Assembly (NCBI GenBank): GCA_014801655.1
Contig: JAAVDT010000029.1
Location: 67,574 to 81,711, forward strand
Direction of reading: 5' to 3'
Origin: Bacteroides sp.
Lineage (GTDB): Bacteria; Bacteroidota; Bacteroidia; Bacteroidales; Muribaculaceae
Length of the DNA: 14,138 nt
The position numbers and the translations under genes were made by a program. Within the stretch, counting starts at the first letter, position 1. Each line of letters starts with the position of its first letter. Shown one piece after another: positions 11,666-14,134 of the stretch. The notes beneath the pieces were generated by a model. It was not told the DNA's origin. It made no database searches and saw only the letters and a program-made list of their open reading frames with translations.

Positions 11666-13342
11666 TTATCTTACTATTACCTTGCGGGCTGTGCCATCAG
11701 ACAGGCGGCGGATATAGATGCCCGTCTGTGGATTACCGCTCACGCGCACACCGCGCAGGTCATAGAGGCCCTCTTCGGTAGGAATCGAACTGATGATTTC
11801 CGGCGAGTCAACGCCCGCCGTGGGTTTGGCTACAAACGACACTGCTTTCACTGCCGACTTCACTCCGCCTCGGGTAGTGTAATATTCCAGACGGCCGGGA
11901 GATGATATTTCAACATCGCCCGTGTGTTCGGCAAACCCATTGGCATCCGTAGCCATTACACTCTGCATCGGCTCATCGCCGGTCCACTTGACGTAGATTT
12001 TCATGCCGAGAGCCTGATCCTCGTGCATCATGCGCACACTGATTGTCTCACCCTCGCCAATCTCATACGATTCGCCACTCGCCGACTTAACATAAAAATC
12101 AAGCGACTCCGGAAGCGCAGGGTTCTTGACAGAGAATGGCATCGAAATCTCCTCATCAAACACGATGCGCTGACCATCAGATGTGAATGCGTCGAAAATA
12201 TCGTTGGGCTTTGTCACCACCACTTTGTAGTCACCCACGCCTTTATACCATTTTGACGGCAACATTGCGGTGAAATGATTCCTATCACTTACAGCCAGCG
12301 AAGTCACGGCTACAGAGTCAGTACCATAGACAACGAAAGTCGAATAATTCGAAGCATCGTTTTTGTGGCAAGCCAGCGTGGCTGCATTCTCCAGACATCC
12401 GGTCACTTCCGTGGGCAGCATATCCGATTCAAATGTTTCCGCCGTCCACTCCGTAAGTTGTGCTTCAGATGTAGGCAATTCGCCATTAGGATGCTCCTTG
12501 ACGATATAGGGACCCACCTTCATTCTTGCAAGGTGACGGACATTGTGATACCCTCCCACTGAGTCATAGAAGCGGTAATCGCCGTCGGAAACAAAAACTA
12601 TCCAATACGTTCCCGGTTCGGTGATAGCCTTGTCGATGCTGACATGGAAACTGACCTCATTATCGTTGGCCAAGTAATTACGGTTGATACAATCAGTGCA
12701 ATACGCGATGATTTTACCCTCATCATTCATCACATACGGACGATACATCGAGTTCTTTGCATTAGGATAAAAGTGTGTGTAAATGCTATTGAGATCAATC
12801 GCATAGTCGCCCAAAAGCGCATCATATTCCCCGGGAGGATTATTATAGGGATACTTTATGTTATCGACATGACGAAGCAAACCTTCCCTGACAAAATCAT
12901 CTGCTGATTCAGGCGTGGAGTATTCTGTATAACGAAATCTTATAGTAGTGGAACTATTGATTGATTTTTCTTCCGGATTCTCCTCATCCTTATTGATGTA
13001 TTTTAGGTTCAATGGTACTCTTAAAGATGACATTTCTTCATTAAGAACGTTGATGGGAATACGTAACTGATGGGCATATCCGTTTTCATCTTTTTTTAAG
13101 GCAATCACATCAACCGCTTCGCTATTGATTGTTGGGATTACTTTCGACCAGTCTGTAAAGTAGCAATTGACGTAATCGCTTTGGAAATAAATATTAACAC
13201 ATTCAATGGTGGTGTATTCACCCTCCATGATATCACGCTGGAGTGGAAGAGAACCAATATTAACTTTGACGAAACCCTCGGCCCACGACATCAGAGTGCA
13301 TGTCACAGCAAGAAACAACGATAGTAAAAGTTTGTGTTTCAT
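11666..13342 (-). CDS. Secreted protein with type IX-secretion-like C-terminal tail
   Basis: The frame is open back to 13369, but Met at 13342 is the better start. It begins a signal peptide (MKHKLLLSLFLAVTCTLMSWA, cleavage near residue 21) and has a GGAG about 10 bases ahead. This gives 558 residues. The mature protein is rich in Tyr, Asp and Ser and looks like stacked beta domains, with no catalytic motif that I can name. The last 35-40 residues contain YDLRGVRV, then GIYIRR and a closing KVIVR, matching the pattern of type IX C-terminal sorting tails in Bacteroidetes. Export across the outer membrane is therefore likely but inferred. Its base composition is AT-richer than the operon genes, which may hint at separate ancestry. 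It is monocistronic, with a terminator at 11576-11625. The function is unknown. Confidence 0.85.
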   Translation of the reverse strand: MKHKLLLSLFLAVTCTLMSWAEGFVKVNIGSLPLQRDIMEGEYTTIECVNIYFQSDYVNCYFTDWSKVIPTINSEAVDVIALKKDENGYAHQLRIPINVLNEEMSSLRVPLNLKYINKDEENPEEKSINSSTTIRFRYTEYSTPESADDFVREGLLRHVDNIKYPYNNPPGEYDALLGDYAIDLNSIYTHFYPNAKNSMYRPYVMNDEGKIIAYCTDCINRNYLANDNEVSFHVSIDKAITEPGTYWIVFVSDGDYRFYDSVGGYHNVRHLARMKVGPYIVKEHPNGELPTSEAQLTEWTAETFESDMLPTEVTGCLENAATLACHKNDASNYSTFVVYGTDSVAVTSLAVSDRNHFTAMLPSKWYKGVGDYKVVVTKPNDIFDAFTSDGQRIVFDEEISMPFSVKNPALPESLDFYVKSASGESYEIGEGETISVRMMHEDQALGMKIYVKWTGDEPMQSVMATDANGFAEHTGDVEISSPGRLEYYTTRGGVKSAVKAVSFVAKPTAGVDSPEIISSIPTEEGLYDLRGVRVSGNPQTGIYIRRLSDGTARKVIVR

Positions 13343-13397
13343 GAAATAATCTCCGTTGCTACCACTCATCCCTTTGGTTGCAGTTTAAAAGATTAGC

Positions 13398-13633
13398 AAA
13401 AAAAAAGCGGGGATGACGTTCTGTTTATCTGTTGACAGGTATCGCCAAACACCTTAGCTAAAATAAACAGTCCACTCCCACGCCTTACCGTATATTCACC
13501 GGCTACCCCTTGTCGAGCGGGGAGTGGTTGATATGCGACAAGCATGAGCGTATTCTATGACTGCTTTTTTCCCTTAGCTATAGAAATTGGCGATTTCGTC
13601 AACAAGGAATAAAGCAAGAATTCGCTTCTTTTT
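13398..13633 (-). ncRNA. Rod-like structured RNA candidate (6S-like shape)
   Basis: A long imperfect hairpin spans the region. The outer arms AAAAAAAAGCG (13399-13409) and CGCTTCTTTTT (13623-13633) pair over 11 positions on the minus strand with one G-U. Inner helices are 13430-13436 with 13598-13604, 13441-13448 with 13587-13594, 13455-13461 with 13574-13580, 13465-13472 with 13559-13566, and CCACTCCC (13472-13479) with GGGAGTGG near 13520-13527. A lateral bulge of about 31 bases lies at 13528-13558. Nine U end the minus-strand transcript. Several pairs exist only as G-U on the minus strand, which favours that strand. The closing stem, central bulge and terminal stem recall 6S RNA, the RNA-polymerase-binding regulator. 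That identity is inference, and a long leader of the downstream gene is the alternative. Confidence 0.5.
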
Positions 13634-13644
13634 AAAAATATGTG

Positions 13645-13688
13645 TGCAATCGCCGCGGCGCAACTGCATTGAGCCGGACTCTTCCGGC
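13645..13688 (-). other. Two small hairpins at the start of the same transcript
   Basis: GCCGG and CCGGC (13673-13677 and 13684-13688) enclose a six-base loop. TGCAATCGC (13645-13653) and GCAACTGCA (13660-13668) pair over nine positions on the minus strand, two of them G-U, which on the plus strand would be A-C mismatches. They lie just after the predicted start point and upstream of the rod-like RNA. Confidence 0.45.
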
Positions 13689-13695
13689 ATCGCTG

Positions 13696-13726
13696 CAAAT
13701 TTAATCTAAAGAATCAATCCCTGCAA
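13696..13726 (-). promoter_or_regulatory. Consensus Bacteroidetes promoter for the structured RNA
   Basis: On the minus strand TTG (13726-13724, in a TTTG context) is followed after exactly 20 bases by TAAATTTG (13703-13696), a full TAnnTTTG match. The start point would be near 13690. It points at the hairpins, the rod-like RNA and then the secreted-protein gene. Confidence 0.7.
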
Positions 13727-13762
13727 ATTTTTTCCAAAACTTTTTCCAAGCAACCGTGAAAT

Positions 13763-13826
13763 AGAGTGCAGAGAACAGAGAGGAGAGGCGCCTCTAAACT
13801 CTATTCTCTAAACTCTATTCTCTATC
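13763..13826. repeat. Heptanucleotide array B, inverted pair AGAGNNN x4 / CTCTNNN x5
   Basis: Four AGAG units (AGAGTGC, AGAGAAC, AGAGAGG, AGAGGCG; 13763-13790) meet five CTCT units (two CTCTAAA, two CTCTATT, one CTCTATC; 13792-13826). The junction forms a perfect 12-bp palindrome, AGAGGCGCCTCT (13784-13795). Both halves keep the seven-base period, so AGAG and CTCT blocks face each other as repeated 4-bp pairing segments. Confidence 0.8.
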
Positions 13827-13837
13827 CTCCCCTCAGG

Positions 13838-13996
13838 GTTCCGCGGGTTCCTGCTCGGAGAGCGAAGCGATTCCCTGCGAGTTCACATTCAAGCAAACCG
13901 GAAAAAACAAATAAGTTCCGTGTCGTTCCGCTCCGTTCCGTATTTGAGGCGCCAGCCGACAAAAAAGTTCCGTAGGCTTTCAAATCCCTAAGTTCC
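13838..13996 (+). repeat. GTTCC motif cluster
   Basis: GTTCC occurs seven times (13838, 13847, 13915, 13925, 13935, 13967, 13992), five of them as GTTCCG. The three at 13915, 13925 and 13935 have an exact 10-base period. No gene is supported here. The role is unknown. Confidence 0.5.
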
Positions 13997-14041
13997 AAAC
14001 ATTAGACCGCAGGCAAGGATTCCTGCTTTCCTATGCTTCGC

Positions 14042-14090
14042 CTCTATTCTCTATTCTCTATTCTCTGCACTCTAAACTCTGATCTCTATA
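14042..14090 (-). repeat. Heptanucleotide array C, CTCTNNN x7
   Basis: Seven perfect-period units fill 49 bases: three CTCTATT, then CTCTGCA, CTCTAAA, CTCTGAT and CTCTATA. Read on the minus strand it is an AGAGNNN array of the same length and unit types as array A. The final unit forms the outer part of the terminator stem that follows. Confidence 0.8.
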
Positions 14091-14134
14091 AAAAAAGCTC
14101 CGGGCCGGAGGGGCTCGGAGCTTTTTTTATAGAG
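14084..14134. terminator. Bidirectional terminator with a 19-bp perfect stem
   Basis: The arm 14084-14102 (CTCTAT, seven A, GCTCCG) is exactly complementary to 14116-14134. Inside, GGCC and GGCT extend the stem with one wobble around a GGAGG loop. Seven T follow the GC-rich core on each strand. It would stop transcription arriving from either side, including a gene beyond the right edge. Confidence 0.8.

Follow-up and report, generated by a model that had tools for sequence, protein, structure and literature searches.

A multicopy structured RNA of Bacteroidota with kissing hairpins, probably a cis-acting transcription-attenuator leader

The element in the window and its promoter

The window analysed here is a stretch of 14,138 nucleotides from a Bacteroides sp. 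of the Muribaculaceae (contig JAAVDT010000029.1, assembly GCA_014801655.1). Read along the minus strand, positions 13727 to 13398 carry a TAnnTTTG box, two leader hairpins, a long folded domain and a run of nine U residues (U9); the gene that follows on the same strand is here called the led gene, and no Pfam family was found in it (Table 1). An earlier note, made from the sequence alone, had proposed a new or 6S-type structured RNA at this site, and the two leader hairpins and the U9 end that it described were found on the minus strand.

Table 1. Features of the element and the led gene, in minus-strand order
Feature	Positions	Strand	Basis or remark
Possible -33 box TTTG	13724..13727	-	20 nt 5' of the -7 box; sequence; assignment presumptive
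-7 promoter box TAAATTTG (TAnnTTTG)	13696..13703	-	sequence and family box count
Leader hairpin A	13673..13688	-	fold; sequence
Leader hairpin B	13645..13668	-	fold; sequence
P0 region AAGC...GCUU	13612..13627	-	fold; CGCUUUUUUUU at the 3' end is an alternative partner of its 5' part (base stem)
P1, 5' strand	13606..13613	-	family test; partner in 13567-13573, short in the window copy
H_low, 5' strand UGUUGAC	13598..13604	-	pairs with 13430-13436; covariation
Kissing hairpin 1	13583..13597	-	loop UCGCCAA (13587-13593); family pairing tests
H_up, 5' strand UAGCUAA	13574..13580	-	pairs with 13455-13461; covariation
GCUCAUG, upstream partner of switching strand (antiterminator side)	13543..13549	-	family covariation
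Insertion domain of window subclass	13509..13542	-	CUUGUCG/CGACAAG and CCACUCCC/GGGAGUGG; covariation
Switching strand GGCGUGGGAGUGG	13472..13484	-	sequence; family tests
H_up, 3' strand UUAGCUA	13455..13461	-	covariation
Kissing hairpin 2, GGU-GUUUGGCGAU-ACC	13438..13453	-	family pairing tests
H_low, 3' strand GUCAACA	13430..13436	-	covariation
Tail GUCAUCCCCGC	13407..13417	-	terminator 3' strand and partner of downstream loop; family tests
U9 run	13398..13406	-	sequence
Downstream hairpin UGCAACC...GGUAGCA	13357..13382	-	loop GGGAUGA (13366-13372) complementary to tail
Led gene	11666..13342	-	ATG at 13342; ORF open from ATG 13369; signal-peptide-like start by eye

The note had also claimed a full consensus promoter. 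The -7 box and a TTTG 20 nt 5' of it are present, but a scan of 13300-13800 for sigma-70-type promoters returned none on the minus strand; by its sequence, the promoter is of the Bacteroidota type, for which PMC9723704 gives the -7 consensus TAnnTTTG. Of 198 family members, 165 have such a box 25-150 nt 5' of the structure; in a reversed control, 12 of 198 do. The promoter and leader stretch (13691-13740) also recurs by itself at two further sites of the genome (L021 and L022; loci are numbered in this way throughout), at 80% over 50 nt.

The minus strand folds with a minimum free energy of -105.9 kcal/mol (z = -4.81) and the plus strand, more weakly, with -94.8 (z = -3.53); none of 100 shuffles was as good in either case. 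Seven G-U and no A-C pairs occur in the helices of the window copy, which were picked by the analyst, so that the count is not unbiased. Across the family, the 5' leader hairpins show no covariation (10.08 with their own partners, 10.04 with swapped ones). Farther along the window, simple repeats of the CTCTATTCTCT type (13760-13840 and 14040-14131) adjoin a strong two-way, terminator-like palindrome at 14088-14131.

A family of homologues and its shared architecture

When a 351-nt stretch was used as a DNA query, four long and two short (50-nt) matches were returned from the same genome, together with matches in 10 of 60 relatives. In an alignment of 18 copies, fixed blocks alternate with stretches that vary but are complementary to one another. 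The core pattern CGTGGG-N14..44-GYGTTTGGCGATRC occurs in 153 of 297 genomes of the taxonomic family (22 of 30 genera), a few matches being due to chance (e.g. L034), and the reversed pattern gave 0 in every genome listed. The assignment to the phylum Bacteroidota rests on the loci in named genomes, of which there are at least 117; members outside Bacteroidales include Chryseobacterium, Tenacibaculum, Algibacter and Roseivirga. Among the 80 named-genome titles listed, 14 name other phyla, and 10 of these 14 lack the partner motif; three were removed by eye and one was kept (L132, a MAG called Lachnoclostridium). At L132, a Bacteroides-like lipoprotein lies behind the element and the contig is probably misbinned.

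The pattern yielded 162 distinct cores, 143 with the upstream partner motif (A/T)CGCCA(A/T) and 19 without it. Removal by eye of presumed chance matches (L034, L090, L103, L106, L143 and L162) left 137, here the pattern set. Both filters lose real members, such as L086, which is a member by the covariance model; on a second look, the arms of L162 pair like those of a member. The covariance model was built from 53 compact members. It finds nine sense copies at E<=2.7e-4 in the window's own genome (84% complete), members in 12 of 118 genomes of the phylum, and members in 44 of 247 genomes of the class (31 of 142 genera), with stricter filters by which weak matches were lost. Its hits form the model set, from which three antisense echoes were left out. 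In all, 204 distinct elements were gathered. At three loci of the own genome (L218, L220 and L221), paralogous leaders have diverged and their kissing loops differ (CCGCCAA/UUGGCGG and CCUGAGAA/UUCUCAGG).

No members were found by a blastn search of plasmids. A phage collection gave one partial match, MT837835.1 (L211), which is filed as a phage clone; its genes look chromosomal by eye, and it is probably a bacterial contig. On viral contigs, the partner motif accompanies 25 of 41 core-pattern matches. Judging from the sequences gathered, the element is a member of a Bacteroidota RNA family that no Rfam model matched in the loci tested.

Because RNAalifold missed most helices in alignments of mixed length, the pairing of each helix was assessed with anchored swap tests, in which the score of a strand with its own partner is compared with scores after partners are swapped between members; these tests control class composition in part only. 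The core is a four-way junction with helix H_low below it, H_up above it, and a kissing hairpin on either side. Both helices are far above their swaps in each of two subclasses (H_low 18.64 versus 8.89 and 19.10 versus 9.00; H_up 17.78 versus 11.02 and 17.24 versus 10.62). In the further helices tested (n=102), P1 (13.58 versus 11.14) and P2 (13.01 versus 11.15) exceed every swap; the local P0 also does, but slightly (9.10 versus 8.33), and its covariation is weak.

The loops of the two side hairpins are complementary to each other. The pattern set fixes this complementarity by its search, so the kissing test was run on 49 model hits; the covariance model contains no loop-loop pairs. The loops score 19.41 with their own partners and 9.45 with swapped ones (sd 0.62, maximum of 500 swaps 11.12), and 35 of 37 distinct loop pairs are well paired, with matched changes on the two sides. 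Of the two poorly paired ones, L212 has an undetermined base and L240 is cut short in the alignment. The pairs seen include UCGCCAA/UUGGCGA, ACCGCGAA/UUCGCGGU, ACUGGUA/UACCAGU, UCUGACAA/UUGUCAGA and ACGUGAGAA/UUCUCACGU, and MT837835.1 has one further matched change.

Alignment A2 (53 members, 41 pairs) agrees with these tests: 87.6% of its cells are paired compared with 75.5% when shuffled (0 of 500 shuffles as high), and its covariation score of 0.340 is likewise reached by none of 500 shuffles (0.146); after sliding, the score does not exceed 0.137. In 24 pairs both sides have changed, compared with 20.9 in shuffles, 10 of 500 of which reach 24. G-U cells number 136 and A-C cells 70. The Y-R pair of hairpin 2 (GGY-GUUUGGCGAU-RCC, n=137) is C-G in 67 members, U-A in 66, U-G in four and C-A in none, even though the search pattern permits C-A; wobble is thus allowed in the minus strand and its complement is not, and this is a better test of the strand than the count in the window copy.

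The window subclass also has an insertion domain, in which one helix is well supported (d/d', 21.73 versus 18.18 swapped) and the other modestly (b/b', 15.39 versus 14.11). From their sequences, CUUGUCG/CGACAAG and CACUCCC/GGGAGUG could possibly form an H-type pseudoknot. Helix d takes the GGG of the strand discussed below, which therefore has one more competitor in this subclass.

The earlier note had named covariation in homologues as the check to make; the check was run and passed, and its proposal of a new structured minus-strand RNA with its own promoter is strongly supported by the homologues. Its picture of a rod of nested helices holds to the extent that there is a folded domain at about 13627-13407; the shape is not a simple nested rod, since two hairpins kiss across a four-way junction and there is support for additional long-range and alternative pairings.

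Alternative pairing ahead of co-directional genes

The apical strand GCGUGGG (CGUGGG) has two mutually exclusive partners, GCUCAYG upstream or the 3' tail UCCACGC before the U-run. Among the 49 model hits, this switching strand scores 20.13 with its 5' partner (17.57 swapped), a pairing that the model itself favours, and 20.20 with the tail (17.56 swapped), which lies outside the model. The strand lacks GTGGG in eight of these 49, and in seven of the eight (L224, L259, L235, L218, L226, L263 and L240; the exception is L247) both partners fit the changed strand. That both track it is the signature of two exclusive states that are both under selection. Matching the 5' arm to the downstream region, as a control, gave no signal (11.24 versus 11.24), and neither did the apical helix of the compact class (16.27 versus 16.30), whose 3' strand is fixed by the search pattern. 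By our own three-dimensional argument, the kissing hairpins would bend the apical arm round so that it meets the tail, and covariation between such distant strands would follow from this.

An uninterrupted tail helix of at least 8 bp is present in 187 of 203 elements, compared with 12 of 201 when a control is taken 60 nt further on; at least five T in the best of three 8-nt windows after the helix are found in 189 of 203 (control 25 of 201). In the window copy the helix of tail and switching strand has mismatches. Its predicted energy is -11.1 kcal/mol, with -12.6 for the duplex of tail and downstream loop and -11.3 for the base stem AAAAAGAAGCG/CGCUUUUUUUU, so a stem other than the tail helix may terminate in this copy. 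The base stem AAGCG/CGCUU was considered as the general terminator stem and was demoted, as the helix of tail and apical strand is longer; yet it is strong in the window copy, and it lies slightly above its swaps in both subclasses (16.00 versus 15.19, maximum 15.85; 13.38 versus 12.24, maximum 13.09).

The genes behind the elements were surveyed with a simple ORF caller. The next gene is co-directional at 106 of 111 pattern-set loci (113 were examined, two of them without a called downstream ORF) and at 43 of 45 model-set loci, with a median gap from U-run to gene of 50 and 48 nt, respectively. The orientation of the upstream gene is unbiased (64:48 and 20:25). By a crude regular expression, exported-like starts are found in 70 of 106 led genes and 120 of 397 other ORFs in the pattern set, and in 21 of 43 and 15 of 47 in the model set. 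Among 141 led proteins, of which at most the first 400 residues were scanned, the largest Pfam groups are BspA-type LRR (18), type I R N-terminus (5) and DUF6140 (3), and PADLOC families matched one led protein each. No common pathway was found in these 141 proteins, and gene content gave no ligand candidate. Two led proteins of the own genome (the window's, at 11666-11800, and that of L016) share the ending TGIYIR-LSDGTARKVIV, which looks like a C-terminal sorting signal. In some members outside the window's order (L228, L229, L237 and L238), a gap of 117-246 nt, longer than in Bacteroidales, separates the end of the model match from genes that by eye resemble ECF sigma factors or SusC-type transporters.

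We consider it probable that the RNA is a structured, cis-acting 5' leader of the led gene and belongs to a family of Bacteroidota transcription attenuators, an orphan riboswitch-like class that would serve diverse accessory genes, many of them for exported proteins. Comparison between members demonstrates the helices and kissing loops, both alternative partners of the switching strand, the box and the U-run, and the place of the element before a co-directional gene. As a leader acting in cis should, the elements lie directly upstream of genes in the same direction; as in an attenuator, covariation keeps two exclusive partners, at the level of the family and with an imperfect tail helix in the window, and a U-run follows the second partner in nearly all elements.

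In the mechanism that we propose, transcription would start just 3' of the TAnnTTTG box and the compact domain would form around the H_low/H_up junction, its side hairpins kissing and its apical arm brought back toward the 3' tail. In the ON state GCGUGGG would pair with the upstream GCUCAYG, leaving the tail free and allowing read-through; in the OFF state it would pair with UCCACGC directly 5' of the U-run and form a terminator. In read-through transcripts, the tail could pair with the hairpin loop just past the U-run and stabilise the ON state. Termination at the U-run, in-cell switching between the two states and their polarity are what we infer from this arrangement, and a ligand or protein bound at the kissing junction would presumably set the balance. 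Some observations speak against the attenuator: genes led by a metabolite riboswitch usually share a pathway and these do not, a structured loop of 50-60 nt would lie inside the terminator, the tail helix of the window copy is mismatched and the base stem beats its swaps slightly, the apical helix of the compact class is no better than its swaps, and the signal between tail and downstream region varies in the model set with the segments taken.

This last signal is 14.91 versus 11.86 swapped (sd 0.20, maximum of 200 swaps 12.46) in 127 elements, i.e. the 143 minus 16 without a recognisable tail, before removal by eye and with near-copies uncollapsed. In the model set it is 13.79 versus 11.82 (maximum 12.64) with a shorter tail and 14.94 versus 13.79 with a longer one, where it is not above every swap (maximum 15.20). 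Such covariation would also be expected if the leader acted in cis on translation or mRNA stability, the pseudoknot of tail and downstream region hiding or exposing the initiation region and the U-run being a weak pause site. The downstream loop lies 23 nt 5' of the ATG at 13342 and itself (13358-13372) contains the in-frame ATG at 13369; in several members, though not in all, ORFs open in the same loop (MEAT.., MDAT.., MDET..), and the tail might therefore hide a start codon as well. We regard this alternative as unlikely, as the T-run kept after the tail helix would be superfluous for control of translation and some downstream partners (e.g. in L004, L014 and L018) have no start codon.

A multicopy, trans-acting sRNA that ends at the U-run, with the tail as its seed and the gene behind as one target among several, would be in keeping with the element's own promoter box, its U-run, its copy number and its variable, seed-like tail, and FopS attests to multicopy sRNA families in Bacteroides (PMC11697453). 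The tight spacing and shared direction of the downstream gene, next to an unbiased upstream gene, and a partner of the tail that lies immediately downstream in cis make this reading improbable.

Identical 44-nt cores in genomes of four genera (G070, G071, G072 and G277, twice within G277) suggest recent horizontal movement and could point to a mobile element that folds as DNA, e.g. a recombination site of the hairpin type that takes genes with it. Given G-U but no A-C alternatives in conserved helices, the polarity of promoter box and T-run, and an architecture conserved while its helices vary, we think this very improbable.

A bolder form of the attenuator reading is put forward tentatively, as something that may well not hold: a new, phylum-wide riboswitch class in which the kissing junction would be the aptamer for a small Bacteroidota signal, switching on exported and often horizontally acquired surface genes by moving CGUGGG, with a tail/downstream lock at each locus to prevent cross-talk between paralogues. 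Apart from this bolder form, an RNA family that has very strong covariation, precedes surface and accessory genes in Bacteroidota of gut and environment alike, and has no Rfam 15 match where tested would amount to an extensive and so far overlooked level of gene control in a dominant phylum of the human gut. With its paired strands, the design allows the ON/OFF prediction to be tested directly, and a search for a ligand is suggested by the clamp-like fold. For B. thetaiotaomicron, PMC7366714 gives 5' UTRs of >100 nt for 13.5% of mRNAs, about 2% of those with a predicted riboswitch.

Comparison with known RNA classes

A permissive Rfam scan of the whole window returned nothing at 13398-13740 at E<=10, including the 6S and Bacteroidales-1 models that the earlier note had named for the search. 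RF00013, RF01685 and RF01693 matched neither the window element (E<=10) nor the member loci scanned (18 at gathering scores, 11 at E<=1), in which Rfam models found only tRNAs. The riboswitch classes of Rfam 15 and Flavo-1 (RF01705) likewise gave no match, either in the window or at these member loci. The Bacteroidales-1 (6S-like) RNA of the same genome lies on another contig (L001, G000:C7:14998-15185, 130.5 bits) and is the single match of RF01693 at E<=0.001 in this 84% complete genome. That the element is a 6S RNA or a Bacteroidales-1 paralogue, as its rod-like minimum energy fold had suggested, is scarcely credible given the missing model matches, the separate Bacteroidales-1 gene, and a multicopy element that leads co-directional genes, and we reject the 6S identity. 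Bacteroidales-1, 6S-flavo and 6S RNA resemble the element in occurring in Bacteroidota and in the rod-like drawing of the fold, but the element has kissing hairpins and is present in multiple copies, as a leader of genes.

Flavo-1 is described in PMC9723704 as a recurrent Bacteroidota motif of unknown function, partly in transcribed 5' regions; the element is likewise a recurrent Bacteroidota RNA motif, but one that the Flavo-1 model does not match. FopS of Bacteroides thetaiotaomicron, as described in PMC11697453, is a set of paralogous, multicopy, trans-acting sRNAs of 65-70 nt. It is like the element in being a paralogous multicopy Bacteroidota family; the element is roughly 180 nt or more and placed in cis, and membership was rejected on size and genomic placement. 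The family was not recognised in the literature searched, and the supplementary tables of large RNA surveys (e.g. PMC8040213) may list it.

As far as the Rfam 15 scans and the literature search go, the RNA family is unnamed, and the type of mechanism that its sequences suggest is already known. In lysine and cobalamin riboswitches, loop-loop contacts (kissing loops) clamp a multi-helix junction; with no model match, their likeness to the element's kissing junction is one of resemblance only. Transcription-attenuating riboswitches differ from the element in that it matches no Rfam 15 class and its led genes have no common pathway, but they share with it a promoter, a compact domain, a strand with two exclusive partners, a U-run and a gene behind.
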